From assembly GCA_037447655.1 (NCBI GenBank), contig JBBHKE010002698.1:236782-300781 (forward strand): a stretch of DNA of 64,000 nucleotides. Direction: 5' to 3'. The notes under the pieces were generated by a model, which made no database searches, was not told the origin of the DNA, and saw only the letters and a program-made list of their open reading frames with translations. Source of the stretch: Zygnema cylindricum. Its lineage: Eukaryota; Streptophyta; Zygnematophyceae; Zygnematales; Zygnemataceae. The position numbers and the translations under genes were made by a program. Positions 1 through 43,105 of this stretch are shown in pieces; position 1 is the first letter of the stretch, and each line of letters opens with the position of its first letter.

Positions 1-796
1 CGTCAAGTTGACCGGTAGCGGTCAGCTTTATCCTAATAGACTAGGACCAATGCTAAGTACTATGGTATGTGATAGATATATATTTAGTTTGCGTGACTAA
101 AATTCATTTAACTAGAACTTTATACGGCGTACATAGATTCAGTTTTATAAAGTACGTCGTACGACGCTAATTCGAAACGGATACCACGCATTTTATTTCG
201 ACATCGGAACAAATATCACGCAAGCATTTATTACGGCTAAGATTGCGTTTGGCACAAAATCCAACGGCGCACATCATCGCCGAAATCCCGGAGTGGTCAT
301 TTTGGCGTTTTGTGACGTGGCATGACCTGGAGCCACGTGGAGAGATGACATTCGGTCATAGGAATTCCGAGGAATGTACGGACGAGTGAAAAGCGGACAC
401 GCGTCCACTTAATAGCCTTGTCGTACATAGGCCGTACAAAAGGTACATCGGCAGTAGTACTTTTGTGTACGATACAGTAATCTGATTGGTCCGTACTTCA
501 GTAGATAGGAGTTATTAGAGAGAATCAGGACTTAGAAAATTTAGGTAGGTAGTCATCTCTCCCTTTGAGAGTTTGTACAAATTGGCATTTTTACTACCTC
601 ATAACTTATCGCCTGGTTGGCCGTTTTCAGTGATTCTTTTTGCTACGGACTCAGGGGAGTCCAGGCTACACAGGGGTGCATTCAAATTGTCAGTTTGCCT
701 TCTGAGGCAGAAGTGGTTGTGGCTTAAAGTGGGTTAGTTAAATACTATCTAGAGGCTTCCTGTATTCTATAGTCCAATGGAGGACACAGAATTGCA
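1..796 (+). repeat. 5' LTR of copia-1 (3' 796 bp only)
   Basis: It matches 5376-6171 base for base over long stretches and ends in ATTGCA, followed directly by the primer-binding site. The LTR start (TGTTGAAATT in the 3' copy) lies outside the window. The LTR is rich in GTAC motifs. Confidence 0.9.
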
Positions 797-811
797 GGTT
801 ATGGGCCCACC
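797..811 (+). promoter_or_regulatory. primer-binding site, half initiator tRNA-Met type
   Basis: The 15 bases GGTTATGGGCCCACC sit directly after the terminal CA of the LTR. They are the reverse complement of the anticodon stem-loop of plant initiator tRNA-Met (loop GGGCCCAUAACC, recalled from memory), not of its 3' CCA end. Drosophila copia uses the same kind of internal site, primed by a cleaved 39-nt half tRNA. The same site follows the LTR of copia-2 at 34283. Confidence 0.8.
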
Positions 812-1860
812 CTCTAGGGTGCCACCTTTAATGGATCTGGGTTCATCTATTGGGAAGCCATGATGATGGGAGCTTTGTGTGAAAAACGATACTGGGGTAT
901 CGTCAGTGGACAAGTGAAACGTCCACCTTCGCGAACTCCACCAGGATTTGGGGGAGTAAGGTTTTCTGCAACAACGGCTGCCTCAGCGAAGGAGGCAGAT
1001 GATGGGGACAGTAGTGTGTCCGAAAAGGAGAAAGGGAAGGAGACACCCCTCACTCCTATTGCCACAGTATCGGGAGCGGCGACCGTGAAGACCGTGGAGA
1101 ACGATACTCAAATGTGGGAGGATGTAAACATGGCTGCAAAGAACTTCATTCTAAGGCACCTCACTCAAGGTTTGGCCACTCCTCATCTTCACATTTACAA
1201 GGCCGAGGAGTTGTGGGAGAGTGTGGTGGAGATTTATAGAGCTGGAACTATTCAGGAGCTCCAGTTGGCTGAGCAAAAGCTATTGAGTTACACTTACAAA
1301 GGAGAAAGATGTAAGATTACTGTAATGATCTTTCTCCTTTGTATATGGAAATGGAAAGTGCCGGGTGGACAAGTACAATGAAAATGAAAGTTAACACCCT
1401 TATCATGAAATTACCAGATGAGTTCGAAAACATAGTGTACCGAGTACAGGGATTGCCTGATAGTTCATGGAAATGGAACACAGTAGTCATGATGATACTT
1501 GTGCAGGAAAACACAATGGAGATTAGGAGAGGAGGAAAGAGCATTCAAGCTCTAGCAGCAAGAGGGGACCGATGGGGGAAGGACCCGAAGAAACCTTATA
1601 GAGGGGAAAAAGATCATTCTAGAGGACAGAGGCCCCCAAAGGGTCTTTGTCATTATTGCAAAAAGTAGGGACACTTTATCGCAGATTGTGTCAAGCTATC
1701 AGAGCTGAGGCTCCAAGAGAACCGTGGAGGGGGTCTTCCGGAGGGAAGAAAAAGGCACTTGTGGTTACAAAAGTGTCAGGAGAAACCGAGGATGAGTCCT
1801 CTGAGGAGGATGGGGAGATTCTTCTTTACGAGAGTCTGGAGGAGAAGGAGATTCCTCGGA
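801..1860 (+). pseudogene. copia-1 gag (capsid and zinc knuckle), frameshifted
   Basis: Gag coats the retrotransposon RNA and builds the cytoplasmic particle. Just after the PBS, the frame at 827 shows the copia gag start FNGSGFIYWEAMMMG and then YWGIVSG. The capsid region continues over two frames (860-1381, 1339-1668) with the typical stretch about MKLPDEFENIVYR. A CX2CX4HX4C zinc knuckle lies at 1648-1689 (CHYC, GHFIADC), but a TAG at 1666-1668 falls inside it. The likely start is the ATG at 801, inside the PBS. A one-base loss near 825 separates it from the capsid frame; copia-2 keeps the two in frame. Confidence 0.85.
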
Positions 1861-1889
1861 GGCAGAAGTGTGCCCTTGGAGCAATCTGG

Positions 1890-4800
1890 GAAGCTCCACA
1901 GGAAGGATGGATCATCGACTCAGGTGCATCCATGCATATGTGTCGTGATAAAGAACTCTTCACTAAGTTAAGAAAAATTCCTACCGTAGAGATAGAGTAT
2001 GGGGATGGGAGGGTGGTTACTACAGATCTTGTGGGATCAGTAGATTTGATAGTCTTAGTGGAGGGTAAGACTTCTATACTTACATTCTCAGATGTACTTT
2101 ACATTCCTTAGCTGAGTAAAAATCTTGTCTCTACGTCTGTGTTAGATGACAATGAGTTTGATACCTTAACTAGAAAGGGAGTCTTTACAGCTAAGTATGG
2201 GGATGAAATTTACTTCACAGCAGATAAGGGTAGCCAAGGAATGTTTAGGCTTAATCTGAGTAATGAAAAGAAGAATGCTTACTATGTTGGTGTTCCTAAG
2301 ATGATGATTTGGCATAAGCGGTTGGGGCATGTGCATTTTGATAGGTTAAGGGAAATGAAAAAAGTTGGGGTAGTAGATGGCATTCAGTTTGGGGATAATG
2401 AAATGATGGATGGTTGTAGTGGTTGTGCTCAAGGTAAGGCTCATAAACTTCCCTTTCCCAAAGCCACGATATATAGAGGTGAGAGTGTGTTAGATTTGGT
2501 CCACACAGATATTTGGGGACCTGGAAAAGTACCTTTGGTTGGAGGAAAGAGGTTTATGATGACAGTAACTGATGACTGGTCTAGATACTCTAGAGTCTAC
2601 TTTGTGAAAACAAAATCTGAAGCATCAACTTACTTCAAAGAATATAAAGCTTGGAGTGAAAAGTTGCATGAAACCCCCATTAAGAGGATAATGAGTGATA
2701 ATGGGGGGGAATATACCTCTAACGAGTTTGAGGAATATCTGAGAGATGAGGGAGTGCAGCACCAGAAAACTGTACCATATAACGCGGAACAAAATGGGAT
2801 AGCTGAGAGGCTGAATCGAACACTAGGAGATAGTGTACGCAGTATGTTGGCTGACAAGAAAATAAGAAAGAGATTTTGGGCAGAAGCAATGAACTGTGCC
2901 AACTACATCAAGAATAGAGTCCTTACCTCAGCTGTAAAGGGAGTGACACCTTAAAAGATATGGGTTGGAAGGAAACCAGATATCCACACCTTAAAGTATT
3001 TGGTAGCCAAGTTTACAGTCTTGACACGGATAGGAAAAACTGGAAACTAGATGCTAAGGGAAAACCTGGATACTTTGTGGGATATGATGAGGATGTTAAG
3101 GGATATAGAGTCTATGACTTAGCAAAGAAAGATATCATTCTGGTCAAACACTTAGTTGTCATGGATGAAGGGAAGTCATTTGACCCCTTCAAATATACAA
3201 AGAAGATAAGGATCAGATTTGAGTCCGAAAGTGATGAGAATTCGGTCGTTCCCGAAAGGGACATGAATGAAACCGTGATTACAGATTCAGGGGAGATCCA
3301 AGATACAGGAGACTCACCAGAAACCTCACATACTCCTATGGACTTCGAGGAGATAGAAGAAGCGGGACAAGAACCGGTTTCCATGGACAGGGGAGCCGAT
3401 GAGACAGTGAGAAGAAATCCAAGACTTCCATCCATTCCAGCTTCGGAGTTCGAGAAAGCAAGGAGGAGCAGCAAAAGGATACATGAAAAACAAGCTGCCC
3501 ATAAGGTAACTAAGCTATCTCATTAGATGAGCCTCAGTCTTACTTAGAGGCAGTGAATAGTCTAGAGAAAGAAAGATGGATTAGAGCCATAAATGATGAG
3601 ATGGATTCTATCATGGAAGCAAATACTTGGGAACTAGCGGATTGCCCTCCAGACCGAAAACTTATTGGATGTTAATGGGTATTTAAACTAAAACTGAACC
3701 CAGAAAATAACAATTGAGAGGTATAAGGCTCGATTGGGAGCGAAGGGGTTCACCCAAAAAGAGGGGATTGACTATGAGGTGACCTTTGCTCCAGTTGTTT
3801 GGTTCCCATCGGTAAGGATTCTCCTCAGTCTGGCCGCAGCGGAAGACATGGAAATATACCAGATGGACATTAAGACTGCATTTTTTAATGGTGTGTTAGA
3901 GGAAGAAATTTTTATGAGGCAACCCGAGGGGTTTGTGGAAGAAGGAGAAGTGAGCAAAATCTGCAGGCTCATAAAGTCCTTATATGGACTGAAACAGGCT
4001 CCTCGACAGTCGAATAAGAAACTAGATGAGTTTCTCACCGATCTGGGATACATCCGGATCAGCTCTGACCATTCTATCTAAATGTTTGAAGATGAGAATG
4101 ATGTCATTTTTATTGCAATATATGTGGATGATCTGCTTGTGTTAAGTAAGTCTTTGGAGAATATCAATAGGCTAAAGAAAGATCTTAGGGACAGATTTGA
4201 TATGAAGGATTTAGGGGAGGCAAAATATATTTTGGGGATCCAAATGGAGAGAGATAGGGGGAAGAAGATTATCAGACTTACTCAGAAAGAAACAATAGGT
4301 AATATGCTTGAAAAATGCCATATGGAAAATGGTAACAGTTGTACCACTCCCATGGACTTGAAAAAAATAATTGATGGGAGTGTAGAAAGAGGAGTGATGA
4401 TCTTAGATGATCAGATGAGTCCAGAGGAGAGAGAGTTTATGAAGTATATCCCTTATAGACAGGTCGTAGGAAGTTTAATTTATTTTATGAACTGTACCAG
4501 GCCGGACATAGCGGCAACAGTTGGAGTACTCAGTAGGAGTCTTAATGATCCTAGGTAGAGAGACTGGGAGGCAGCCAAGAGAGTCATGAGATATCTGGTT
4601 AGAACCAGAGAATTATAGTTGCATTTGGGAGGGGAGCACACTGATATCACCACTTGGATTGATGCCAATTATGGGGATGCACCTATGAGAAGATGCACTT
4701 CTGGATATGTTTTGTATGTGGGGGAAGGAGCTTGTTGTTGGAGCAGTAAGCAACAAAAGGTAGTTGCTGTCTACTATGGAGGCTGAGTATATGGCGTCTT

Positions 4801-5060
4801 GTTCTGCTGTAAAAGAACTAATGTGGGTGAAATCATTGTTACAAGAACTCGGATTTATAAAGGAGGGAGTGCATGAAATATTTTGCGATAACCAAGCTGC
4901 AATTGCAATTGCAGCCAATCCAAAACACCATTTCAAAGCAAAACATATGGACATCAGATTGAGCTTCGTAAGAGAAAAAGTTGAAAATAAAATTTTAATC
5001 TTGTGTATAGACCTGATGAAGAAATGGTGGCTGACATGATGACCAAACCTGTGCCCTCTC
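1890..5060 (+). pseudogene. copia-1 pol (protease, integrase, RT, RNase H), broken
   Basis: Domains run in Ty1/copia order. Protease: WIIDSGASMHM near 1910, where DSGA is the catalytic Asp motif. Integrase (2139-2954): HHCC finger (HKRLGH, CSGC) and a D-D-E core in HTDIWGP, MSDNGGEY and NGIAERLNRT. A charged linker and the KVFGS region follow (2960-3526). RT (about 3550-4558): MDIKTAFFNG, SLYGLKQAPR and the YVDD box at 4121-4132 are all intact. RNase H (about 4610-5060): WIDANY, STMEAEY and FCDNQAA keep the acidic triad, and the usual ADMMTKP tail is present in a shifted frame near 5027. Stops and frameshifts interrupt it about eight times. Many stops are TAG where relatives have Gln, suggesting C-to-T decay. 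Confidence 0.92.
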
Positions 5061-5119
5061 CTAAACTAAAATATTGTCGGGAAAAATGCGGGTTGAAAGA
5101 AAAAATAAAATTAGACTAG

Positions 5120-5132
5120 AAAATAAGGGGAG
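5120..5132 (+). promoter_or_regulatory. polypurine tract of copia-1
   Basis: The purine run AAAATAAGGGGAG lies directly before TGTTGAAATT, the start of the 3' LTR. It is the expected plus-strand primer. The same tract precedes the 3' LTR of copia-2 at 36284. Confidence 0.8.
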
Positions 5133-6171
5133 TGTTGAAATTTATAGATTTCTAGAGTATTTTCTAGGTTTAAATATGTTTTTATAAAAGGAAAAGAAAA
5201 AGGACGGACAGCCTGCCTCCACCTCCGCTCTCTAGCTCCCATACTTGTTGTAGTCACTGAAGGTAAGAGAGAGAGGTTGATCCATGGCTGCCTTAGTTCA
5301 ACAAACAACTATTTTTAGTGGGTTACTAAAAATATACTTGACGGACCAGAGATTTGATCCCGGTACTTGCGGTTAGTCAAGTTGACCGGTAGTGGTCAGC
5401 TTTATCCTAATAGACTAGGACCAATGCTAAGTGCTATGGTATGTGATAGATATATATTTAGTTCGATTGGATAAAATTCATTTAACTTGAACTGTATACG
5501 GCGTACATAGATTCAGTTTTATAAAGTACGACGTACGACGCTAATTCAAAGCAGATACCACGCATTTTATTTCGACATCGGAACAAATATCGCGCAAGTA
5601 TTTATTACGGCTAAGATTGCGTTTCACATAAAATCCAACGGCGCACATCATCGCCGAAATCCCGGAGTGGTCACTTTGGCGTTTTGTGACGTGGCATGAC
5701 CTAGAGCCACGTGGAGAGATGACATTCGGTCATAGGAATTCCGAGGAACATACGGACGAGTGAAAAGCGGACACGCGTCCACTTAATAGCCTTGTCCTAC
5801 ATAGGCCGTACAAAAGGTACATCGGCAATAGTACTTTTGTGTACGATATAGTAATATGATTGGTCCGTACCTCAGTAGATAGGAGTTATTAGAGAGAATC
5901 AGGACTTAGAAAATTTTGGTAGATAGTCGCCTCTCCCTTTGAGAGTTTGTACAAATTGGCATTTTTTACTGCCTCATAACTTATCGGCTGGTTGGCTCTT
6001 TTCAGTGATTCTTTTTGCTACGGACTCAAGGGAGTCCACGCTGCACAGGGGTGTAGTCAAATTGTCAGTTTGCCTTCTTGGGCAGAAGTGGTCGTGGCTT
6101 AAAGTGGGTTAGTTAAATACTATCTAGAGGCTTCCTGTATTCTGTAGTCCAATAGAGGACACAGAATTGCA
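5133..6171 (+). repeat. 3' LTR of copia-1, 1039 bp
   Basis: It starts TGTTGAAATTTATAG after the polypurine tract and ends GAATTGCA. Comparison with the 5' copy fixes the right end: the two diverge exactly after ATTGCA, into the PBS on the left and into AAGTACATCGG on the right. Confidence 0.9.
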
Positions 6172-7150
6172 AAGTACATCGGTAGAAAGACAACCTGCGC
6201 CATAGGCTAACCCTTCTGCCACGCGAGATTTTAAGGCCTCACCGAAACTCGGACAAAAATCTCCTCTTCAGCGGGAAGGGGAGGACACAACAGGAGCTAA
6301 CAAAAAGGGGTTGGGTGCAGATCCACCAAGTAATTGAGTAGCCGCGTCCACTAAGCTTCCTACTCTTATATAGGTGGCAAGATCTTCCACAGTGGAGGCC
6401 GTGGTACAACCACAACCCGACAGGAGACTCCACATTTTCTTGGGACTAAACACTCCTCCTCCATCACCACCTCACGGTTACTCTCTTTCCCCTTCCTTCT
6501 CCCCAGCTGTAGTAGTCTGTGGGTCTCCGAATTCGCTTGTTCTTCCTTACAAATACACCGCATACTCACCTCCTAACCGCTGATCCCCATCCTCTAGTGC
6601 CGGAACGCCTCATTTCGAGGATCTCCAAAGGAGGCACAAGAGTCAAACACCGACACCCTTTAGGAGACAGACACCCTCTCCTCCAAGCTTCCAGCTGTCC
6701 CTTCTCCGCCGCTAGCCACCACCCGGGGGCCTCGACCTCGCTTGCACATTCCCTTGGTGGAGACAATGTTAATGGGAGAACCAGTATCTCCTGAATATAG
6801 ATGAGCCGACGATCTACCATCTTCTTAAAGAGCAAGATCTTCCTCAGTGGGAGAAAGAATCACTCCTGTCACTACAACCCTTCTTACTCGGGGAGGGACC
6901 GGTTCGAATCCTGAGATTCAAGACCCCAAAGAAGTCTCACCAGCTCAGTTTGCCTGTCCCACCAGACAGGCTTCACCACGGTTCCTCAGTACTACGGAGG
7001 AGGAAAAAAAAATGAGGACGTCTGGATCTTCACAGGGGAAAACTCTAGGATTGCTCTATTTGATTTCGAACTACTGTGGAAATGTTTCACACAATCCAAC
7101 CTTAACAAATACAGGGGGAGAGCAATACCACCGAATTTCGAAACAACTCT
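6172..7150 (+). other. gypsy leader region, no gene seen
   Basis: This 1-kb stretch separates the copia-1 LTR from the recognisable gypsy gag. It holds only short overlapping frames with no motif. A GGTTCGAATCC string near 6901 resembles a tRNA B box, but no tRNA fold surrounds it. An upstream in-frame piece of gag may lie in 6847-7170, joined to the capsid by a frameshift near 7170. Confidence 0.5.
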
Positions 7151-8640
7151 ATGGTCAATTATTTAGACGGAGGGGCATTGGCCAATTATAAGGAGCGTCA
7201 ACTCTTGTTGATGGCCCCCACTATCAAAATAAAAGATCTAGACTTAGACGCCGATGTCATTCAGGTAGCCGCCGAATTGGCCGCTGCCGCTGTAGCTCCT
7301 ATCACTACAACGTTCACTATGGACATAAAGCTGCATGCCCAAGGTAGGGCCTATGTAAATCAACTCAAAGCCGTACAAGCCGCCGAGGCCGCCACTCGGG
7401 TGATTGCTAACCCCACTCCCTCCACGACTCTTTTGGAAGCTTGGAGACTCCTTTATACAAAAAAAAACGAAACATTAATCAAGGAGTTCACGAACTTTCG
7501 ATCTTTGAAGAATGAAACTCCTCAAACTCTGTTCAACCGCCTCTCTAGCCTTTGTCAAAAGACCAAATTGTCCACCATTGATACGCCAACAATGGCCACC
7601 AAATACTATGTGGTTTTTCGAAATTCACTCGAGCCAATAGGGCAAGCTGCTCTGGAAAATTGGAGTACCAGTGAGCCTATACACGAGAAGAATCTTACTG
7701 CGCAAGAAATTTCACTGGCGACAATGAAGTTATATGATTATTTTGTCAACAGCGAGGCGAGAGAAAAGGCGGTTACGCGAAAAGCAAGAGCCAACTTTGC
7801 AGGTTTTGCGGGGGAGTCATCTCTCAGCGAAGAGGAACATACTGAACTTCAAGCTTTGCGGAAGGCTAAAGGGAAACAAGAAGCTTAAACTAAACCCGAA
7901 CCCGCAACGGGGGCAGATTAAAAAATATCTTTACAATTGCTTGAACTGCAACCAAACTGGTAACGGGTGGAAAAGATGCCCTATAAAACTCAACCCATAA
8001 CTCTTGATCAAGCAAAAGAGTTTGAGAAGGAACGTGCGAAAAGAACCTGGAGGCAAAAGGAACGCACGCAAGGAGGCAAAGGAGGGGACTGCATGCCGGT
8101 CACTGGAGACAGCTATAAACCTACTCCCGCTCTGAAACGACAAAATGTCTCAATCCCTGTTGAGACAAATCTGACATCCTAAATTTGATGATGCTCAGAT
8201 CTCAAATGAGCTAAGGGGGAAGTATACAACTGAGGGGTCGAAATGTGAGGCTTGTGGTTTCATGGGGCACAAAGAAGGGCAATGTTTCCGAAATAACGGG
8301 GTCCCAAAACAAATGCTGCAATACGCGGTGTCGAAGGGGAAACAACGGTTAATCCTTTGCCACTTCAACTTTTATATCCACTGGGACGCCGATCTCTCGG
8401 TGAACTAAGACCCAGTACAATGAAACAGGAGCATCTCATCCAAAAACAGAGCACTCAATTGGCCGCCTTGGCAGCAGAACTAGCTGCTCTCTGCTTGGGA
8501 TCTAATACTTGCACCCCTCGACCTCTAACGACAACTTAGAAACTGCAGAAACAAAAACAAGAACTGCTGCAAAAGTTGGCAAAGCTAGAACAACAAACCA
8601 TGGTGGGGGGTGATAACGATGACCTAATGGGATGGGATAT
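7151..8640 (+). pseudogene. gypsy gag (capsid plus two zinc knuckles), broken
   Basis: The 245-codon frame 7151-7888 has the look of a retrotransposon capsid: Ala-rich helices, then TLLEAWRLLYTKKNETLIKEF and TPQTLFNRLSSLCQK, which suit a Retrotrans_gag fold. Two knuckles follow. The first, near 7937-7982 (CLNCNQTGNGWKRC), has Asn in place of the zinc-binding His. The second, at 8242-8290 (CEACGFMGHKEGQC), is a complete CX2CX4HX4C. Stops at 7886 and frameshifts between the knuckles break the frame. The spacer 8640-9300 is Pro- and Glu-rich with no recognisable domain. Confidence 0.75.
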
Positions 8641-9300
8641 GGAGCCTACAAATGCTCGTCATGCTCAAACATTACTGTCAGGAGCCTAGAACGTTGGAGT
8701 AGGGGACAGTCGTAGGCAACTGAGCCATACAATGTCCTCCCAGAGAAAGGACAAACAGCTAATGTAACGAGGGGACCACAACCGCAAAGCCACTGGTCCT
8801 TTATCCTTCACACCCAGAGCAGTCATTTTGAACAGTGATATTGGGCTGGGCCTAAAGCCGACTCATCCACCTCCTCCAGCTCCAAACAAGCTTTTTCCTG
8901 GTTTCGAAGATTTTAAGAAACCCCAGCAGGAAAAAGATCCTTCAACCACTAAGACAGGTCATAAATGGTTCGACCGATACCTGGCTGAAAGACCAACCAC
9001 TGATCCTCCGATTACACCTCCAACAAGGAATTTTGACGAGGAAAGTGAGGAAGAAGGGGGGGGGAATGATGAAATCAGAAGACGACAATTCACCCATTTC
9101 ATCACCCAAAGCTCTCCCTCCTTCCTCCAAGCTGGCAGTAATGCTAGCACGGCACTTCATGCCCTACGCTCTGACTCATGTCAAAACGCTAGCCTCCTCC
9201 CACAATTTGCCCAAAGAAACACTCATACATGCATTAGGGGAAAAGATTCACACCAGGAGAGAAAGGGTTGTGTTGGTAGAACCACCCAGGACAAGCTTCA

Positions 9301-9888
9301 TTGCGGCAAAACCAAAAACTTATATGGCCAAAAGAGATTGTAAGGCCCTTGTCGGTTGCTCTTATTTTTAACAGGATGGGAAATTTTAAACTCAATGGAT
9401 ACGGCGGGTATCAGGATGCCATAGTAGAAACAAAAGCTCTCCCGAATATCATAACCACATCAGCATTACAACAAATGCCCGAAGACCTCTTGCCAAAAAT
9501 CAGTCTAAGTGACATCTGCCTGAGTACGGTCAGCAGTGGTAGCCAACCAGCATACGGCATCTTCAAGGCAATGAAAATCGAGTGTGCTGATGACGCGTGC
9601 CAATACGTACTTATTCAACTCCCCTTCCTAGTGGTGGATGGTAAGCAGTTTGAAATTTTGGTGGGTATGGCTACCTGGACCAGGTTGAACATTGAATTGA
9701 GCGTGTGGAAGGAACAAATTACAGTTTCAGACCGGGAGGACCCAAAGGGCACCAAAGTGTTCATCCCCTTAGATTTATGGAACCGGTGGAAAACAACTAT
9801 TCCGGTATCTAGATGCTATCCCGTATACTCTGCATCAACACTTTTGGAGCTGTTCAAAGACTCCACAGATATTGCAAACTACATATAG
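9301..9888 (+). pseudogene. gypsy aspartic protease-like domain, active site mutated
   Basis: This 195-codon open frame has the retropepsin outline. An N-terminal strand is followed by AIVETKALPNIITTSAL where families have A-x-x-D-T-G-A-x-x-N-I-I. Further on, LVVDGKQFEILVGMATWTRL matches the usual second strand pair. The catalytic DTG reads ETK here, so the enzyme should be inactive. It sits between gag and the methyltransferase, as expected for a gag-pol polyprotein. Confidence 0.65.
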
Positions 9889-10092
9889 CAATTCCCTATT
9901 TCCAAACAGTAGGAAAAAGAGTATTATAATAAATTGGTTCAGATGACCACACTTCGGCGGGAAGTGGACAAAAGCTTTGCCGCCATATCGTACGGAACAG
10001 CAAAGGTTCTCCTGTCAAAACTTTGGACAGTTTCTAAAAAAGGGAAAGACTTCGATCGACAAGTGGTGTCACTAGAGATCTCGCCCTCCGGA

Positions 10093-10990
10093 CTCAAGAT
10101 TCTATCATTATTTTCCGGTATCAGTTCCAAACCTAGAAGCTGACCTAAAAGCTGGATACTAAGTAGAAACATACTCGGCAGTCGAGATTGACCCGGACGC
10201 CCGTGCAGTCAGCGAGTATAGACTACAACAACTTCACCAACTTTACCCACAACAACCCCGGTATGTGCCATGTGTAACTCTCACCGCATGCTACCCCAGA
10301 ATGTGGACAACATTACAAATTCACATTTGGAAAAGCTGGGACAAGTAGATCTGGTGGTTGCTAGATGGCCATGCCAAGGGTATTCGTTAGCAGGACAGGG
10401 TAGGGAGCACCAGGATGTATGTAGCAGAACATTTTTCAAGATGACGCGACTGATAACAGAGATAAACAAACGTCAAGACACGCCAATGGGGTACGTCTTG
10501 GAAAATGTTCACACCACAGATGATAAAAGAAAATAGGTGGTTAGCGGCTGGAACTAGGTAACTCAAGTTCTGGGGACTCCCATAGTTTTTGACGCAGCTC
10601 AGATCGGATCAAGAGCCCACAGAGTTTGAGCTTACTGGACCAGCTTGGTTCCTCTTCCAATCCTCCAACACCTCTTGAAAACACAGGTTCAGGATCGTAG
10701 CCTCACTGTTGAGCAGATACTCGGACTAAGGCGAATGGCCACCCTCGTGACCAAAACTCACAAAGCACCCTTCTTCTATTACAATCATCTCGGGAATCCA
10801 CGGAAAGCCCTACCAACACTAGTATCATTCCCCAAAAGCCATCCTTATCGGAAAGGTGCCCCATAAATGATATTTGACAGCACAGCGACTACGTGGACAA
10901 CGCCAAGCATTGAAGAACATGAACGAGCATTGGGATTTCAACGAGGAACCACAGCAACACCAGGGTCTCAGTCTCTAAAAGGCGCAGTTT
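10093..10990 (+). pseudogene. DNA (cytosine-5) methyltransferase domain inside the gypsy pol, DNMT3/DRM-like
   Basis: It resembles the enzymes that move a methyl group from S-adenosylmethionine to cytosine C5. Conserved motifs appear in order over about 300 codons, in three frames. Motif I: LKILSLFSGIS at 10093. Motif II: YSAVEIDPDARAV at 10172. Motif IV: the catalytic Cys loop PCQGYS at 10369-10386, preceded by VDLVVARW. Motif VI: YVLENV near 10492-10509, followed by DKRK. Motif VIII: FDAAQIGSRAHRV near 10591-10626, then AYW. A motif IX-like stretch with ALPT and RALGFQRG lies at 10810-10950. The spacing of ENV to DKR and the AHR-x-R/x-YW block are closer to DNMT3/DRM enzymes than to MET1, CMT or bacterial enzymes. 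Frameshifts near 10140 and 10250 and stops near 10534 and 10627 kill this copy. Confidence 0.85.
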
Positions 10991-11299
10991 GATCGGGCAA
11001 AGTATGGATTTGAATGCAATTTCTTCGGTACTGCAACAATCTCTGGCATTCTCCAAACTACAATCTCTAAAGTCACGACAACATACCTTCAAGCTCCACA
11101 ATTCTTGGCCATGCAAGCTACTTTAGAGCTTGAGGGGGGGAGAAATGGAAGAAGAGAAAAATTCAAAAATTTTTAATCAAAGAGCACACTGAACCCAGGA
11201 GTTTCCTCAGTGGGGGGGGGGAGAAGCTCAAAACAAGAAATTGTCAGTAGCAGCGTTTTTGCATCCAAGCAAGGGATAGATCCACAAGAAGAGCTTAAA

Positions 11300-12330
11300 T
11301 TTGACATCTCCCTCTGGGGTCGACCGCCGAAAGCATGGGCTGTAAAGGAACCAAGAAAGATGGACTGGACTCTAGAGGAACAGCTAGATCCACATATGAA
11401 GGCTTAACTCTCTAAGTTGTTAGAGGAGAACGGGTAGGTGTTCTTTTAGTCTAACAAAGATATCCTATTTTTAGGGACCCCTATCCAATAGATTTGACCG
11501 ATAAGACGTCAACCTTTTGGCAGAAACATTATCCTCTCAGCTTCAAGGAGAAAGAGTTCATCACCGCAAAGGTGCAAACTTTGGTGGACGCAGGGTTTGT
11601 GTAGGAGAGTATCGAGCTACATGGGTTTGCCTCTCCAACAATGCTCCCGCCAAAGAAAGACTCCTCCGAGAAAACTGTAGATTTTTTATGTGTGGAGACT
11701 ATCAGATACTCAACACGGCGACTATTTTCGATCCTTATCCAATGCCTACCCCAGAAGAGATCTTCGATTCTCTTGCTGGGACCACCATTTACTCCACGTT
11801 GGATATAAAAAATGGATTCCACCTGATAGCAATGGAGCCAAAGCACCGAGAGAGGACAACTTTTTGGGCACGATCCAGGTTGTATGAGTGGTTCTACACG
11901 CCATTTGGTCTCAAAAATGCATCATCAAAATTCCAACGAGCTATGGACGAGGCCCTCCGGGGAATTGATTACGCATAGTGTTACATCGACTCTGTAATCA
12001 TTTTCTCCAAGACATTCAAAGAACACTTAGAGCATATACAGATAGTTCTTTGGGCTCTCCAAGTAGCAAGCTTGAAGTGCCATCTGGGGAAGGGAATCTT
12101 TGAGGTGCAAAAAATCATTTGTCTGGGTCATGAGGTGACTCTTAGGACAGTGGGTCCCCACATGGTTAAGGTGGCAGCACTCGAAGCCCTTCCACCCCTG
12201 CACGACATTTTTGCCCTTCGCACTTTCCTAGGTTTGGCCAACTATTACCGGAGGTTTATTCCCAAATTCAGTAGACACTCCCAGCCATTAAATGAAATGC
12301 TGCGAAAGGACCAAGAGTGGCAGTAGGCAG
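11300..12330 (+). pseudogene. gypsy reverse transcriptase, broken
   Basis: RT copies element RNA into cDNA. The N-terminal part (PHMKA, LSKLLEENG) lies at 11390-11440. The fingers then read IDLTDKTSTFWQKHYPLSF at 11490, in another frame from the palm. The palm (11650-12000) has GDYQILNTATIFDPYPMP, the D of YSTLDIKNGFH and TPFGLKNASSKFQRAMDE. The catalytic YxDD box at 11982-11993 reads YIDS, losing one metal-binding Asp. The thumb and connection follow with LGHEV and FLGLANYYRRFIPKFS at 12230-12280. At least five in-frame stops occur, several of them TAG at expected Gln codons. Confidence 0.9.
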
Positions 12331-12399
12331 AAGAATAGCAAATTGCTTTTCAGATCTTGAAAGACTCCCCTAAGCAACATCAGGTGTTCCGGATGCCCG

Positions 12400-12790
12400 A
12401 TCACCAGCGACCTTTCCTCCTTTATACTGATTGGAGCAGGTTCGGATTGGGAGCAGTGCTGGCACAATAGGATGATGCATGGGTGGAATACGTAGTGGCT
12501 TACGCCTGTAGGAGCAATAACAGGGCCAAGGGGAATTACAGAAGTTACCACGGGGAATTACTCGTCGCAGTATGGGCCATCCAGCATTTCAAGCCTTACC
12601 TCTATGGAGTACATTTCACCCTTATTACAGAACACCAGCCCCTCAAATGGATAATGGAGAACAGTGAGTTGACTGGCAAGCTGGCCAGATGGGTTCTCAT
12701 TTTGCAGGAATACGATTTCAACATCATCCACCTAGCAGAGTAGAATCATGGGAAAGCAAACAAACTTAGCAGGAATCTAGACCCTTCCAT
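12400..12790 (+). pseudogene. gypsy RNase H, broken
   Basis: This is the gypsy-type RNase H that removes RNA from the RNA-DNA hybrid. FLLYTDWSRFGLGAVLAQ carries the first Asp, YHGELLVAVWAIQHFKPYL the Glu, and FTLITEHQPLKWIM the next acidic position (Glu where Asp is usual). RWVLILQEYDFNIIHLAE is the normal C-terminal end. TAG codons interrupt it near 12469 and 12741. It directly follows the RT thumb. Confidence 0.88.
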
Positions 12791-13009: not shown

Positions 13010-15270
13010 CTTGGCCGGGAGTCATTTATCCCATGTTCAATCTCGCTTGGCGGCGTATGAATGAGACCGAGGCATTCTTCTTAGAAAATGGGCCGATGTG
13101 ACAAGGAAAGTGATTTCCCTTTGGCAGATCAGGAAAGCCTCATTGTTGACTTCACCAGCAATGCAGGCACTTCGGACATAAACGAACAACCTTACTCGTT
13201 ACAAGGTCATAATTGTGTCATGGGTTGCGGGCCCAAGTCAACCGTGTGGTGCAAACGTGCCTTTCATGTGACCAGGTGGAAGTTGCCTTTGAAAAGAAGG
13301 GTGGAACAGAACTTTATTCCCTCCCCCTCCGGGGGATGTTTTACAGGTGGTCACTGGATCTACTGGGACCACTCCCAACCTGCCGCAGGGGAAGCCGTTT
13401 TGTTTTGGTAATGATTGAACACTTCTCCAAATGGATCGAGCTGGTGGACCTTCCCCGAAAGAAGTCAAAAGCAATCACGGACGCAATCTTGCAGAGAGTG
13501 TTGTCCCAATCTGAAGCACCGATAGAAGTCCTCACGGATTAGGGTTCCGAGTTTGCCGGAGAATTTTCTAACCTTTTAGAGAAACGCCTCATTGACGACC
13601 GGTTGACCAACCGAGACCACCCCCAAGCCGACGGTCTGGCTGAAAGGTGCGTACAGACACGCATGCGGTTGAAGAGGATTTAAAGAAGGGTGCTTTGGAT
13701 TGCCATGGGATACTGGTTCAGTAGGCAGGCCTCCCTCGACTCTTATAGCCCTTACTTCATTCTCTTTGGCCGACATCCCATCCTACCAGAAGTTGCCTCA
13801 GCTCAGGCGATTGTGCTTCCAGAAATGAAAACCCGGGGGACTGTTAAGGAACTGATTGAAATTTTGAGACCTCCATAAGTCCTCAGAGTGGACAGCTTCC
13901 AAGAAACCTCTAGGATAACTCTGACCCCTTTGTGTTTAAGCAAAAACAACTGCCACCCTGACAGACAAAAACTCTGGCCACCTGCACCCTTATGTAGGCA
14001 AGACTCCCCTGAGTCTATTGCAAAAAGAATTTCTGAATTTGCTCCCCTGAGCAGAACATTATGGAGGGTCAAAGTTGACCTTTTGTACAAAAGCTCTCTG
14101 GGAGAGAGGGTCCTATCTCCTAATTTTTCTAAGTTCTATCTCTCTCACATACTCTATCTACTGATGTACGGAACCAACCAGGATGCAGTTCCGTATGCAA
14201 AAGTACAACTGCCGGTGTACTTTATGTACGGACATTGTACGACATGGCCTAAATGTTGACACATGTCATATCCGGATTCGGTGCCATAATCTCCGGAGAT
14301 TCCACGATCCAATGTAATTTCGCCACGCGTCATCCGATGTGGCGATGGCCACAAACCGCCAAAATCTTCTTCCGCGATCTCGGCGCTAATTCCGGCCGTC
14401 CGATTAAATTCGAATTTAATCGTAGCCGTAATACATGCATGCGCGGTATTCGTTTCACTTCAAAAATAAATGCGCGGTATTGATTTCTTGTCCGTACCGC
14501 AATCCGTACTTATACATTACCGGATCTATGTATCCCGTAAACACTTACAGTTAAATGATTTATCCTACGTATACATGTTTAAATAAATATCAAACTATGT
14601 AGTACGTAACACTAGTTCTAAACTTAACGGCTAAGGCTATCGGCTATTCACTGTCTACCTGCCGATAGGTACAGGGATCAAATCCTGTGGCCGACACATA
14701 CCTTTTAGACAAAATAAACCCCTAACTAATATAAATTTCCCGTAAACCTCTGGATAGCCTAGGTAGCCATGGCTCTAGCTCCCTCTCCAATTTCTCAATG
14801 ACTGCGACAAGCTTGAGAGTTGGAGAGAGAAGTTAGAGGTAGATTGCCTTGGCTTCTTTCTATATTTCTATTTAGACCAAGAAAATACTAAAAATGGACC
14901 ATTAATTTCTACAGTGATTGCCGACCGAGCCAAAGTGTTTCATCGGGAAATACCTCTGTCCATCGGCAGTTTACAGGTTGCTCAACACAACACAGGGATG
15001 ACCTTTGGTATTCCCAACGCTTGAGCGGAAATTATGTCCCACAACAAAGGCGATTTGTACCCGGGGATTTTGCGTATCGCATGAAAGAGAAGAAGGATAC
15101 TTTGGACAATTCGGCCGGACGAGTGATATTGAAAGTAGTGGAGGTCTTTAACAAAAGGGTTCTAACCTTGGAGGGGAAAGACGGCCGCAAAATTAAAGAA
15201 AATCAGATCAATGTGGCTCCTTGCCACCTACGAGGGCTAGAAGACCAACCCACTTTCCACCTCACCTATT
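13010..15270 (+). pseudogene. gypsy integrase, split by a solo LTR
   Basis: Integrase inserts the cDNA into the genome. The Cys pair of the HHCC finger (TCLSCDQVE) is at about 13243. The catalytic core follows with WSLDLLGPLPTCRRG, VLTD-stop-GSEF and HPQADGLAERCVQTRMR, giving D-D-E. Then comes SPYFILFGRHPILPE. The frame is interrupted at 13857-14913 by a solo LTR and resumes with ADRAKVFHREIPL. C-terminal GPY/F-like residues (YVPQQRRFVPGDFAYRM) begin at 15021. The frame from 15021 to the PHD end is open for 141 codons. Confidence 0.9.
13857..14913 (-). repeat. solo copia LTR (copia-1 family) inserted in the gypsy integrase
   Basis: Read on the minus strand it starts TGTAGAAATTAATGG and ends AATTTCA, about 1057 bp. 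It aligns along its whole length with the copia-1 LTR, for example the blocks about TTTGATCCC, GTACTTCAGTAGATAGG and ATTCTTTTTGC. It is flanked by CTGAT (13852-13856) and GTGAT (14914-14918), a 5-bp target duplication with one change. Removing the LTR and one duplicate restores an uninterrupted integrase frame. No internal copia sequence remains, so the LTRs recombined. Confidence 0.88.
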
Positions 15271-15293
15271 TTGCAGAACCACCCTCTTATTCC

Positions 15294-15434
15294 TGTGTTT
15301 GCAATGGGTCCTCTACGCTCGACCTTCAGATAATATGTGAACACTATCACCAAGGGTGGCATGAAGGTTGCCTTCCACTGAATTGGGAGCCCTGCTCTCA
15401 TCCTGCAAATCCGTGGTTCTGTGGGGACTGCGAA
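15294..15434 (+). pseudogene. PHD finger at the integrase C-terminus
   Basis: PHD fingers read histone H3 tails; gypsy chromoviruses carry a chromodomain at this position instead. The pattern is C-V-C, then IICEHYHQGWHEGCL, a spacer, and WFCGDC, giving Cys-x-Cys, Cys, the GWHEGC core (His plus Cys) and a closing Cys-x-x-Cys after a Trp. One metal ligand is uncertain: where a second Cys of the second pair is usual, the sequence has EHY. It is the last domain of the frame, which ends with TGA at 15444. Confidence 0.72.
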
Positions 15435-15446
15435 TTTGGCGGCTGA

Positions 15447-17105
15447 TTTGTCTAATCCACTAAGTCACATGGGACTCAAAGGAGGGGGGGAATCTGAGGG
15501 GGGGAATATGAGGGGGCCTACTGGGTACTTTTTCCTCTTTCACTCAATTCCTCATTATTACTTATGCATATCTCTTGTGGTGGGGGAACAAAGAAAGGCA
15601 TTGTCACAGGTTTGGGGAATCATCAGCATTTGGGGTGGATGGCAAGTTTCTTATGCACACCTCATAGGACATCTTTTATAAACCTCACATCCCCAGGCAC
15701 GCTAAACAGCTGTCAAGCTCATGTGCATCTTCGGCACATTTGCACTCTTAGAAGATCCAGGGCCTCTTCCCACCATGTACAGCCTCCAATGTACAGAGAA
15801 GGGGGAGGACAACCCTCCCGATGAGAAATTTGTGTTTTCACTGTGGAGCACAACGCCCTTGAGTTCACCCTAAACGCAAGTTGAACTGCGGAGTAAGTCC
15901 GGTGCAAAGGTGGCGGCTTCATTTCATGGCATCCGTTCTATGTAGCTCTAGCGGATGGGTACATTGTGGAATGGCGCGGAGCCTTTGGGATTGTCCCGTA
16001 GATCTTGCTGTTAGTTGTGAGTAGGATGTTAGTTCAGGCCCAACAGACAGGCACAGCATTTATGACATTGGGTCAAAGTTAGACGTTTCACGTCAATTCA
16101 GAACTTTGTTGCTTACTAGTGTGCCATAGGGGGACCTTTGGCTGTCAATTCAGCCGGAGACAGTCGCCTAACTTTTTGCCTTGAGTGTAGTACACCATTT
16201 TTTGTCTTATGCCCGTACAATAACAATTGCTGGCCGCTGATTGGCTTTTAGCATTGCTTTGACTTTGGTAGGTGCAACATGACAGACTTTGGTTGTATAA
16301 GACACTTGGGCCGAATGAGACAAGTTGCTTCTTGAGTACTATCTCCTAAGAAAACCCCCACATAATAGAATTAACCTTTTCTGTTGGACAACTGTTGCAT
16401 TTTGTCGTTGACTCTTTTTGCCATCTTTGTTTTGGATTGTCTGTTTTGGAGATTGTAGCTCAGGTGGGTGGTTAGCACTATCCTCTCTTTGGGCGGTTTG
16501 GACTTTCGCTGTTTGAAACTTAGAAGAGTCCTGTCGGATGTGTATGGTGGAACCAAGGGGTGAGGGAGACTCATACCTGTCTTCGGGGCCATTGGGAGAG
16601 TTTCCTTCTTCTGAGTTTGGTCATCGTTTCAATCCGGGGTATGTTCGCTCGCTTCACCACTATGATTGACTTCTATCTTTATTTCCATTCTTTGGGGCAA
16701 GGTGATATTGTTTAATATGAAAGAGCCGATTTTTATTGATTCTTTATTTCTGCGTGGGAGCTATTTGCGTACTCTTGTGGTCGTCTTTGGTTTCTGTCTG
16801 GAGTTCTTATGGGCTAGATGGGATGACTATCATTCCCTTTCTATTCTTTGGAGAGTGGTCTGGAGTGTAGCATTTAGTAGGCTTTTGGTGGATAAGCATT
16901 AAATCTGAGGGGTGGTACGGGGTACTTTTTTCTCTTTCACTCAATTCCTCATTATTACCTATGTATATCCTTAGGGGGGGGGGAACAAAGAAGGGCATTG
17001 TCACGGGTCCATGGAATCATTAGCATTTGGGGTGGATGGCAAGTTTCTCATACACACTTAATAGTACATGTTACTTGAACCTCACGGTCCCCAGGCACGC
17101 TCGAC
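15447..17105 (+). repeat. gypsy 3' end and LTR-like sequence with a duplicated 200-bp block
   Basis: After the integrase stop come purine tracts (15479-15515), then a block at 15494-15700 that recurs at 16905-17100 (shared text CTCTTTCACTCAATTCCTC, GGGGTGGATGGCAAGTTTC, CCCCAGGCACGCT). The simplest reading is two LTR starts about 1.4 kb apart: one full LTR followed by a second truncated one, or two nested insertions. Its termini could not be fixed because no 5' LTR is available for comparison. No gene is seen inside. Confidence 0.55.
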
Positions 17106-17254
17106 ACTTTCGAATATTTAAGATTGATTAGCTTTCCCTCACTTTTGATTTCACAGCGTTCGTTTTTCTTTTTCTCAAATTCAACTTTTAGTCCACTACT
17201 CACAGCATGCATAACACTCAAAAGGTTATGCTTTAAACTATGTAAGTATAATAC

Positions 17255-31592: not shown

Positions 31593-31798
31593 GATTCCCT
31601 TTAATGTTGTTTACTGATACAACCAAAACAAGAGGTACAGAGTGTTGTTATTTGTGTATTTTCTAAGTTTGATTTATGATAAAAATAAGCAGAGGCATTC
31701 CCTTTAATGTTGTTTACTGATACAACCAAAACAAGAGGTACAGAGTGTTGTTATTTGTGTATTTTCTAAGTCTGATTTATGATAAAAATAAGCAAAGG
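31593..31798 (+). repeat. 103-bp tandem duplication across the LTR start
   Basis: Two adjacent units (31593-31695, 31696-31798) share text from ATTCCCTTTAATGTTGTTTAC to ATAAAAATAAGCA, with about two differences. Each contains flanking DNA and the first bases of a copia-2 LTR (TGTTGTTATTTGTG). Confidence 0.85.
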
Positions 31799-32956
31799 CA
31801 GTCTGCCTCTAAACTCCCTTCTCCAAGCCCCCACACTTGTTCTAGTCAGTGATGGCTGGTATGGAGTTAGAGCCACGGCTGCCTAAGCCTTCTAGAGAGA
31901 CAAGAGTAAAAATTGGTAGATTTACCTAAAGGGGGTTTGACGAACCCACAATTAATCTAGGTACCTACCGTTCGTCAAACTAGCCGTAGCCGTTAACTTT
32001 GTCTATTAAATCTAAAACCAACGCTGAAGTATATAGGGTTTGATGGACATTCAAATATTTACAAGTAGGAAATTTCGTTTAACTAATAAATAGAACGATA
32101 GAATATAGAGCTAGTTTTAAACTATAGTACCGCACAAAATAAATGTTGCGAACATTTATTTCAACAACTAATAATCAATCCGGTCTTCATCAAACCGCCC
32201 TGATAGGAGCCGATATCGCGGAGAGGGCCTTTTGGCGTTTTCTGGTTGCCGCCACTCCGGATAACACGTGGCAGCATCATACGGGTTTACAGAATCTTGG
32301 GTGAGCAAGACAACAAATCTGGATGTGACAGATGTCACTATTTTGGCCATATAGTATAATTACCATACAGAAAGTAATCCTGTACTTGTATTTTTTCTAC
32401 GGTACAGTCCTATGATTAGTCCGTACTTCAATAGAAGGGGTTTATAAAATGAAATAGGACTTAGCATTTTTGGATAGGTAGCCGCCTCTGAGTGACAACA
32501 CTCTTGTATAAAAGCCTAACTTTGACCAACCATAACTATCAACTCAATAGACCATTTTCAGTGATTATTTTTGATCCAGACTCATGACTGTCCAAGCTAC
32601 ACAAGGGTGTAGTCAGTCGAAGTTCTCATGACTGTCCAAGCTACACAAGGGTGTAGTCAGTCGAAGTTCTTCCTTCCCAGGGTGGTTGCATTTCTAAGGG
32701 AAAGTCAAAATGGGTGAATGTGTCCAAAACTCAAATTCTAACTTTGCATTCTGTGGTGAAACTGAGCACATAGAAAGTCTTACTTCCCAGAGGTGAAATT
32801 GTTTTAATGTTTTGATTTTCAAGGGGTCAATCATTTGGGTTTGTATCAACTTGGAGTCAGCAATAACTATATAAGCTTCTTTGGATCTGCGAATTCTGTG
32901 GGGGTGGACCCCATAGAATTACGAATTCTATGGGGGAAGGGCCCCATAAAATTTCA
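31746..32956 (+). repeat. solo LTR of copia-2 family (LTR-A)
   Basis: It begins TGTTGTTATTTGTG, ends CATAAAATTTCA, and matches the copia-2 3' LTR at 36285-37423. A TATAAAAG box lies at 32507-32514. Local changes include a 46-bp tandem repeat near 32583-32675 and a short duplication of the GAATTCTRTGGGG end region near 32890-32950. Confidence 0.82.
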
Positions 32957-33764
32957 CGGAGTAGTACACAGAGGTCCGAATTTGTATAAACAACCTCATT
33001 TTTCGTCCAATGGAACATCACCTTTAATTTTAGATGTATAATTTAAAGTTGATTTTTGTTGGCGTTATGCCTTTCAACCATAATAAGAGCTTTCTCTCTC
33101 TCTTAGTCTTGAATATTTTTGAGTCAAAATCCGTTTTTGTTACTTTGGATCCAAGAAAACTACACCGCTCATCGTTATTAGTGTGAAAAATTAATGTAGT
33201 TGCGAAATTAGACTTAATAATGCTTATTTAGTGCAAGGTGAAATAACACATTTTGGTCCACTTCCTTAAATAATCTTGTTAACTCTATTTTATGAATTTT
33301 GGCCAAAAAAGGTTGTGACAAAATATGTGTTATTAACACTAATAACAACGATGGGCGGTGTAGTGTACAATACACCTTGGAATCACTAGTAGTGAAAAGA
33401 TAAAAATAGTGTTATTAACTTTAATGCCAACTAATTTATACATGTAACAATATTTTGGAAACACATACCCAAGGTATTTTCACTATAGACTATGTTCACA
33501 TAGTCGACGTTTGAACATGTGAGACAAGTTTGCGGGATTTTTCCCTTTCTTTATTAAGAATGAAAATTGAATGTGCTTTCCCATGTCATCGCCATAACAC
33601 TTTTTTTGTATGGTTCGGATAAAATAACGAGCATTTTTAGTACAAAATGCTTGAGTCGGTAAACAACTTTATTTGTGAAATGCTCAATATAGTAAAATTG
33701 ACATCGATTATACTGTACCTATATTATAACGGGAAAATGTAATTCAACTTTCTAGGGTCAAAAT
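32957..33764 (+). repeat. flank copy X, duplicated at 37424-38225
   Basis: About 800 bp follow LTR-A and recur after LTR-C (37424-38225) with high similarity, including text such as GTTGGCGTTATGCCTTTCA. Each copy contains a 200-bp TIR insertion (33160-33363, 37628-37826) with ends CTACACCG and CGGTGTAG. It marks a segmental duplication. Confidence 0.82.
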
Positions 33765-33767
33765 AAG

Positions 33768-34281
33768 TACAGAAAGTACTCAAGTACTTATACTTTTTGT
33801 ACAATACATTCCTATGATTGGTCTGTTCTTCAGTAGAAGGGGTTTAGAGAGGGAATAGGACTTAGCATTTTTGGGTAGGTTGCCTCCTCTTTGTGAGAGA
33901 ACTGGAGTATAAAAGGATAAATTTGGCCTTCCCTTACTATTAACTCAATTGACCATTTTCAGTGATTCTTTTTACTGCGGACTAACGTGAGTCCAAGCTA
34001 CACAGGGGTGTAGTCGGTCAGAGTTTTTTCCTAACAGAGTGGCTGAATTTCTAAGGGAAATTCAAAGTGGATGAATGTGTCCAAAACTCATATTCTAACT
34101 TTGCATACTGTGGTGGAACTCAGCACACAGAAAGTCTTATTTCACAGGGGTGAAGTTATATTGGGGTTCTGATTTTCAAAGGGTTAATCATTTGGGTTTG
34201 TATCAACTTGGAGTCGACACTAACTAGATAAGCTTCTTTAGATCTGAAAATTATGTGGGGGGTGGACCCCATAAAATTTCA
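33768..34281 (+). repeat. truncated 5' LTR of copia-2 (LTR-B)
   Basis: It aligns with the last 590 or so bases of LTR-A from ACAGAAAGTA onward and ends AAAATTTCA before the PBS. The first 600 or so bases of the LTR are missing; the break joins directly to flank copy X. A TATAAAA box is at 33908-33914. Confidence 0.82.
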
Positions 34282-34282
34282 T

Positions 34283-34297
34283 GTTATGGGCCCACCA
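34283..34297 (+). promoter_or_regulatory. half initiator tRNA-Met primer-binding site of copia-2
   Basis: GTTATGGGCCCACCA lies one base after the LTR end (TTCA, T). It is complementary to 15 bases of the anticodon arm of initiator tRNA-Met, as in copia-1. Its ATG (34286-34288) is in frame with the gag motif FDGTSFTY. Confidence 0.8.
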
Positions 34298-35979: not shown

Positions 35980-36284
35980 ATTCGGGATGGGGTTGGCTAT
36001 TTGAACTGCAAGAGAGAATTTGTATTTTGCTCGGATGAAAAAGGGATGAGGTGGATAAAATCCTTGCTCCAAGAGCTCAGGTTTATATAAAGTGGCATGA
36101 AAAATAAAATGTTTGATAAACAAGATGCAATGTGTATTTTGACTCATCTAATACACTTCTTTAAACACGGGGGTATTCATTTAAAGTTTTATGAGAGGAA
36201 AAGAAAAAGAAAGAAAAAGGTTTTTTTTGTTTTGTTTTGATTTTGTGTGAGATGAGAGGAAAATAGACTAGAAAATAAGGGGAG

Positions 36285-41570: not shown

Positions 41571-41574
41571 CTCT

Positions 41575-43001: not shown

Positions 43002-43100
43002 AAAAAATCCGAAAGAACCCTAAAAAAAAACCCCTAAAATAAGAACCCTAAAAAAAAAACCCTAAAAATAAAAACCCTAAAAAAACCCGAAAAAACCCCA
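43002..43100. repeat. CCCTAAA-like (plant telomere-type) interstitial tract
   Basis: About six CCCTAAA units with expanded A runs lie in about 90 bp directly after the DUF616 stop codon. The units are irregular, so this is a degenerate interstitial tract and not a telomere. Confidence 0.55.
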
Positions 43101-43105
43101 AAACT

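Follow-up and report, generated by a model that had tools for sequence, protein, structure and literature searches.

The window, the whole 64,000-bp stretch of Zygnema cylindricum DNA that was analysed, contained one copy of a large gypsy-type retrotransposon family. This copy is dead and cannot itself make the proteins described here. It carried a C5 cytosine DNA methyltransferase (DNMT) domain between the aspartic protease (PR) and the reverse transcriptase (RT). Alignment with relatives, among them the copy L009, together with domain searches and repeat comparison, gave the following features.

6212..6525, + strand: 5' leader fragment of the DNMT element (aligns with L009 829-1142, 73%)
6937..9288, + strand: gag region, decayed (aligned with L009 from 1615 onward, 77.7% identity)
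9289..9885, + strand: PR region (open frame 9280-9885)
9886..9888, + strand: in-frame TAG, then CAA TTC, at the PR-pol junction; putative readthrough stop (conserved across copies)
10072..11107, + strand: C5 cytosine DNMT domain, DNMT3-like, decayed (alignment to relatives)
11108..11619, + strand: linker between DNMT and RT (L009 alignment, 76.4%)
11620..12338, + strand: RT, gypsy type (RVT_1 3.2e-12 on 11505-11975; boundaries from the L009 alignment)
12339..12740, + strand: RNase H (RT_RNaseH 6e-23 on 12471-12740)
13104..13858, + strand: integrase (IN), first part (rve 1.3e-5 on 13213-13539, below the cut-off; boundaries by alignment)
13859..14914, + strand: nested insertion of 1056 bp within the integrase (missing from the L009 alignment)
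14915..15278, + strand: C-terminal part of the integrase past the insertion (aligns with L009 from 8570; 83.4% counted with the PHD finger)
15279..15443, + strand: C-terminal PHD finger, decayed and missing some Cys (aligns with L009 8929-9093)
15505..15709, + strand: terminal repeat B1 (direct repeat of 16902-17106, 84-86%)
15710..16898, + strand: terminal repeat A2, with a TGTC start in relatives (80-82% to the 5'-terminal repeat A1 of copies C1374, C544 and C1042)
16902..17106, + strand: terminal repeat B2 (ending in GACA), the 3' end of the element (repeat comparison)

Decay was similar along the element. Identity to L009 was 77.7% in gag, 81.8% in PR, 80.7% in DNMT, 76.4% in the linker, 84.3% in RT-RNase H and 83.6% in IN, in agreement with the equal level of decay claimed in an earlier note made from the letters alone. 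The L009 pol had the Ty3/gypsy domain order, with RVT_1 at 601-763, RT_RNaseH at 851-955, H2C2 at 1090-1146 and rve at 1166-1259. In L009 gag, zinc-knuckle-like Cys-His patterns were recognised by eye, and the Pfam search of L009 gave no match to gag. The Pfam search of the window PR piece itself gave no match, and the relative L006 (253-1089) matched Asp_protease_2 at 2e-4, below the cut-off.

The terminal repeats were split. C1042 was built as A1, coding region, B1, a shortened A2 and B2, and the 3' end in the window as B1-A2-B2, while C1374 and C544 stopped after the first B repeat. The element ended in TGTC...GACA, and a target duplication was not seen by eye at 2 copies. The nested insertion was flanked by a 6-bp duplication (TGATTG, 13853-13858 and 14915-14920), and its repeat also occurred in L018, L024, L027 and L028 (84-89%) and in L029. 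This insertion is a later event, foreign to the DNMT element. Part of it was 68% similar, in reversed orientation, to the terminal repeat at 2-796 of a Ty1/copia-type element, and by this likeness it is perhaps the lone terminal repeat of a relative. The Ty1/copia-type element itself, at 2-6171, adjoined the 5' part of the DNMT element; its terminal repeats (2-796 and 5376-6171) were 94% alike, and it matched gag-pre-integrase, integrase, SH3 and RVT_2. Elsewhere, the window contained a 2-kb direct repeat within 31743-38228 (31743-33764 and 36282-38228, 85%) and, at 41400-53800, a satellite-like stretch of numerous short diverged repeats lying in either orientation.

In the DNMT domain, motif I (ILSLFSG) lay at about 10099, motif II (AVEIDPDAR) at 10178, motif IV (PCQGYS) at 10369, motif VI (ENV) at 10501 and motif VIII (SRAHR) at 10609, between PR and RT on the same strand, where the earlier note had placed them. 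The reading frame of motif II differed from that of the other motifs. The extent first given, 10093..10990, was right in location and slightly too narrow, the alignment putting the domain at about 10072-11107. The HMM search against the C5 methyltransferase family that had been proposed as a check was positive: the open piece 10222-10533 alone matched PF00145 with an E-value of 1.3e-8 (35.1 bits, cut-off 22). Five other open pieces from 9280-10989 gave no Pfam match, and 8 stop codons lay within 9889-10977.

The residues expected of a C5 methyltransferase were compared in 59 rows, namely 58 rows of the DNMT tree set described below (window copy included) and DNMT3A. The catalytic Cys and the Glu of ENV were present in 59 of 59, and the Arg of motif VIII in 58, with one gap. 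The Pro of motif IV was replaced by Glu in 39 of the 59 rows, family B among these; motif IV was PCQ in the window's family and ECQ in family B, not PCN as in the DNMT3A row. PCN is common in DNMT3 and was not taken as defining. The domain was labelled DNMT3-like because of this PCQ or ECQ. Among solved C5 methyltransferases, it was nearest to DNMT3 both by sequence and by the predicted fold of a relative, and on these two grounds its DNMT3 affinity holds. One profile search was biased toward DNMT3A, which was among its 8 query rows; in that search DRM2 was matched in two stretches. Neither fold list contained DRM2, CMT or MET1 in its 50 rows, which excludes nothing. In DRM, the plant rearranged DNMT3, motifs VI-X stand ahead of I-V. 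The order I, II, IV, VI, VIII in the window and relatives was unrearranged; a DRM-like identity was therefore rejected, so that of the DNMT3/DRM affinity first suggested only the DNMT3 half was kept.

The genome assembly scanned consisted of 352.8 Mb in 2689 contigs. It contained nuclear light-harvesting genes (88 PF00504 matches). The open frame of one of these, L039, had its best score with an LHCI-2 chain of 620 aa (503.6 bits over two stretches), followed by land-plant LHCII chains at about 416-422 bits and, lower, a Chlamydomonas chain at 370 bits, which puts the host in the green lineage and perhaps among streptophytes; no rbcL was found in the search for it. The RT of the relative L006 gave 146 scored matches (3211 candidates), and the best 20 of the 146 were fetched. 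The DNMT stood directly before RT in 20 of these 20 copies, whole in 15 and partial in 5; in the partial copy L011 it lay behind a run of N. Comparison with 141 DNMT match rows showed a DNMT match within 1.5 kb upstream in at least 69 of the 146 RT matches, a lower bound obtained with 28 of the 123 rows of one DNMT match list. Six of the other 77 RT matches belonged to the 20 fetched copies, with DNMT, and 18 copies were sampled at even steps from the remaining 71. The DNMT was found in 16 of the 18. No recognisable DNMT or linker was present in the 1.5 kb upstream of RT in L041 (C1479) and L058 (C2146), which may be broken copies or a DNMT-less variant. These two came nearest to the findings that would have spoken against the earlier note; intact members without the domain, or a host pseudogene in one copy, were not found.

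Family B (L034), from the same genome, had one open frame, 2155 aa in the stretch fetched and 2395 aa by the genome-wide count. According to Pfam, this frame carried a zinc knuckle (below the cut-off), DNMT, RT, RNase H, H2C2 and integrase. Its protease was a DTG motif seen by eye only, without a Pfam match, and by eye its continuation had the PHD pattern. The continuous PR-DNMT-RT frame that had been looked for was present in family B, open from gag through DNMT to integrase with PR recognised by eye, and absent from the window's family, in which a conserved TAG separated PR from DNMT. A 5743-aa open frame at C961 was discarded, its striking length being a run of N.

With the family B domain as query, 43 related polyproteins were obtained, two of which (P0031 and P0060) came from Haematococcus lacustris. 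Domain order was mapped with home-made profiles. The DNMT lay before RT in 3 of the 43, and after RT or RNase H, and before the integrase where present, in 33. Three proteins lacked RT, RNase H and IN and had the DNMT in the upstream place, 3 had DNMT and IN (and PHD) only, and 1 had DNMT only. PHD was found in 32 of the 43.

Quick trees with SH-aLRT support only were constructed. The DNMT tree (66 rows) left out 12 fragment or broken hits (P0008, P0010-P0016, P0018, P0045, P0047, P0060) and, from 117 further hits, took P0062 and the outgroup rows P0063, P0071, P0077, P0084, P0108 and P0120, plus P0017. The outgroup consisted of bacterial-looking sequences and the tree's single animal DNMT3, which stood on that side by the chosen rooting, with no plant DNMT3, CMT or MET1 rows. 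In this tree, 58 rows stood on one side against the 8 outgroup rows (99). All 34 rows in which the DNMT precedes the integrase sat in one 39-row set (99), whose other 5 rows were proteins lacking RT. The RT tree, of 39 rows, was based on rows with RT longer than 180 aa plus RNase H, and on P0062 and P0012; it split the two DNMT positions at 100. Families A and B had the same neighbours in the RT tree as in the DNMT tree, P0062 and P0019. The window copy grouped with the A1 copies (a subfamily, as is A2 here, not the terminal repeats) in the DNMT tree (95), but in the RT tree it fell within the A2 rows (83, 81).

Because the two trees agree, the DNMT and RT appear to have travelled together, which suggests one old DNMT-RT association with one change of place as the simplest history. 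The DNMT tree, with its outgroup of one animal DNMT3 and bacterial-looking sequences, also suggests a single capture from a host. A viral source was rejected, IMG/VR giving 15 loci that were 24-29% identical; so were plasmid records, 3 of which matched P0031, none across more than 80% of it. The DNMT is a native part of the element's Pol and no stray insertion, because it had the same place in 20 of 20 copies, decay similar to that of PR and RT, and a tree that agreed with the RT tree; its membership of the polyprotein, read at first from the window alone, was supported.

Among copies with a readable junction, PR was followed by TAG CAA TTC in 21 of 21 rows, which represented 19 distinct copies (L006 = L009; L002 = L012). 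All 16 aligned copies had a stop at the junction codon, and from DNMT to integrase no codon was a stop in more than 3 of the aligned copies. A genome scan with the pattern ATH-NNN-CAR-TTY-CCN-ATH-TCC found 268 sites, against 1 for the reversed pattern, the sites being counted by pattern and not each confirmed as inside an element. Among 100 listed of the 268 sites, NNN was TAG in 87, TAA in 2, and TAC, CAG and TCG in 1 each; the remaining 8 looked unrelated by eye from the matched letters, five of them lying in one contig. The codon after TAG was CAA in 87 of 87, although the pattern allows CAG and pol prefers CAG, whereas the neighbouring Pro codon used all four third bases. This difference points to constraint on the RNA at the stop context, with the caveat that the copies are related.

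The conserved TAG CAA TTC therefore predicts readthrough, and the DNMT seems to be made only in this way. Compared with the TMV-type (tobamovirus) leaky stop consensus UAG CAR YYA (PMC2754532), five of the six bases fitted, with UAG followed by CAA UU; the sixth was not A but C in 79 and T in 8 of the 87 sites. Gypsy-type rice elements are named as readthrough candidates in the same source. Unlike in the TMV-type and rice cases, the stop here would gate the DNMT as well as RT. Conserved RNA structure 3' of the stop was unconvincing (of 28 pairs predicted from 7 sequences, 6 showed compensatory changes and several were broken). Reassignment of TAG in the genome was rejected, the 1520-codon pol frame of L009 having no TAG and 91 CAA or CAG codons. 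An internal start was likewise rejected: QFPIS, which directly follows the stop and precedes the first Met (codon 19 in L009 pol), was kept in the 19 copies, bar one Phe for Ile in L018. Splicing out of the TAG may be an alternative to readthrough.

Upstream of PR, in the L009 frame at 3397-3691, five codons were stops in 11-15 of 13-15 copies. These stops look like a frame change, because open frames of 488, 623 and 511 aa (L012, L020 and L024) cross the stretch and reach to or near the TAG. Gag start and PR were joined in one frame in 0 of 11 copies listed (L009, L012, L014, L016, L020, L024 and others). A second recoding site (programmed frameshift) or plain decay would explain this break.

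At the Pol C-terminus of the window's family, a Cys4-His-Cys3 pattern was aligned in 15 copies, with some cysteines lost. The L009 pol matched PF00628 at 0.0044, below the cut-off, and the four relatives tested (P0028, P0029, P0031, P0025) had a PHD finger above the Pfam cut-off. The nearest solved fingers included those of MLL3, MTF2 and ATXR5 (2.5e-4 to 1.5e-3). Some such PHD fingers read unmodified histone H3 tails. The same four relatives, in which the DNMT lies between RNase H and integrase, extended beyond the PHD. There, P0029 showed a weak match to a D12-class N6-adenine methyltransferase (0.0031, below the cut-off) and P0028 to Methyltransf_11 (0.13), so that a second methyltransferase is possible by these matches. 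P0028 also had a G-patch domain directly after the DNMT (1184-1223, 2.7e-7), and the same family was listed for P0055. P0021 and P0022 had ORFs of about 1330 aa ending about 78 aa past the DNMT, on contigs of 8-9 kb; in this lineage the recoding site may lie after the DNMT instead of before it.

Between the A1 and A2 copies (12 x 4), the median dN/dS was 0.094 for DNMT (48 pairs), 0.025 for RT-RNase H (48 pairs), 0.071 for PR (36 pairs) and 0.051 for IN (44 pairs), with synonymous sites saturated. The DNMT value was higher inside A1 (median 0.34, range 0.125-1.57, 66 pairs) and was 0.19 between the window and A1 (12 pairs). By these ratios, the DNMT evolves under purifying selection. Stops per 1000 codons numbered 3.7 in PR, 3.6 in DNMT and 4.4 in RT-IN; the rate of 10.6 in gag was inflated because of the frame change. 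In the pol frame of decayed copies, 62 stops were TAG, 31 TAA and 25 TGA, largely from CAG to TAG and TGG to TAG.

On the window branch, C>T changes in coding parts were found at 37 of 217 CG sites versus 82 of 843 CHH sites (p 0.004), and in the non-coding repeat at 18 of 87 versus 25 of 330 (p 0.001), which suggests that the window copy was methylated at CG, by whichever enzyme. A strong CHG footprint was seen in coding parts (60/265 versus CHH 82/843, p 2.6e-7) and was not claimed because it was absent in the non-coding repeat (11/102 versus 25/330, p 0.31).

The retrotransposons with captured methyltransferases that the earlier note had mentioned for charophytes and dinoflagellates do exist (de Mendoza 2018, PMC5890265), and a 2025 paper (PMC12344493) refers to these Klebsormidium and Symbiodinium elements. 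KnitGypsy-Dnmt3 is a gypsy element of Klebsormidium nitens with DNMT3 in Pol. As it is described in the former paper, it shares with the present element an intronless DNMT3-type domain of unrearranged order in the Pol ORF, purifying selection and a DIRS-like repeat order with gypsy domains; judged by this description, the two are of one kind. Its authors conclude that the K. nitens lineage acquired the domain independently. The DNMT here differs from that account in belonging to a set shared with Haematococcus and many other sources: P0031, P0060 and 41 others are in the same DNMT tree set, and most of them also carry gypsy RT, RNase H and integrase; they differ from the window's family in that in 33 of the 43 the DNMT is not before RT. 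The Symbiodinium retrotransposons SymbioDIRS-Dnmt3 and SymbioLINE-Dnmt (PMC5890265) also carry DNMT. In SymbioDIRS the DNMT3 lies in Pol, and when placed in yeast it methylates CG de novo; the authors proposed that DNMT acts on cDNA for DIRS elements. As described there, these elements differ in being DIRS with a tyrosine recombinase, or LINE, with no DDE integrase. The main text of PMC5890265 mentions readthrough, PHD, protease and Haematococcus 0 times, and no PR-DNMT-RT order is given in the text compared. The conserved stop, the PHD and the two DNMT positions go beyond that text on the known kind. A search of the open-licence literature found such elements reported neither with a PHD or a readthrough stop nor from chlorophytes, which is no proof of absence.

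On balance, it is probable that the DNMT is a Pol protein dosed by readthrough that methylates the element's own cDNA, with the PHD sensing the H3 tail at the target. The upstream reading frames would yield gag and protease as the major products, ending at the leaky UAG. A minority of ribosomes would decode UAG-CAA-UU(C/U) as sense and make DNMT-RT-RNaseH-IN-PHD; with readthrough, the methyltransferase would be packaged beside RT and at the dosage of Pol. Following cleavage, the DNMT would methylate CG of the double-stranded cDNA, in or after the particle and no later than integration; the PHD on the integrase would sense the histone H3 tail at the target. Judged from sequence, the element's own cDNA is the most likely target. 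Counting against this explanation are the yeast result given below, the sixth base after the stop, the unconvincing RNA structure, the gag-PR frames, the dN/dS of 0.34 inside A1 and the 2 of 18 copies without DNMT.

It is unlikely that the DNMT acts through host chromatin, released or fused to the integrase, methylating the target site or other copies and limiting jumps as self-restraint. The CG deamination footprint in coding and non-coding parts and the PHD at the integrase end of Pol would fit such a role; however, host methyltransferases alone would give the same footprint, and the marks are not tied to the element's enzyme. Quite improbable is a non-catalytic or RNA-directed role, such as nucleic-acid binding in the particle. 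Glu in place of the motif IV Pro would agree with it, as would the Klebsormidium enzyme, which had no activity in yeast, a result that its authors call inconclusive (PMC5890265), but PCQ is kept in the window's family, the active-site Cys and Glu are invariant, and DNMT3 is what a relative's predicted fold most resembles. There is practically no probability that a host methyltransferase pseudogene or exon was inserted in this one copy: nothing was found in support of this, and it is refuted by the constant place of the DNMT, its similar decay to PR and RT and the agreeing trees, together with the single open frame of family B with DNMT, RT, RNase H and integrase.

Beyond readthrough-dosed methylation of the element's own cDNA, a wider history is possible, though doubtful: a green-algal gypsy ancestor may have captured DNMT3 once, before RT, and shifted it once, later, into the place between RNase H and integrase. 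With the PHD finger carried by the integrase, the enzyme would then be a mobile counterpart of DNMT3A-ADD, a histone-tail reader joined to a cytosine methyltransferase within a single polyprotein, metered by readthrough, by which the element marks its own cDNA on arrival.

The puzzle is why a transposon carries the class of enzyme that hosts use for silencing transposons. The many copies, the several subfamilies and the long frame of family B make self-methylation a question that can be tested on extrachromosomal cDNA. The conserved stop offers a concrete model of dosage, and the PHD a model of targeting. This genome, Haematococcus and many other sources share one DNMT set, which occurs in two positions in Pol and whose tree agrees with that of RT; this speaks for a long-lived association and not the accident of one lineage.
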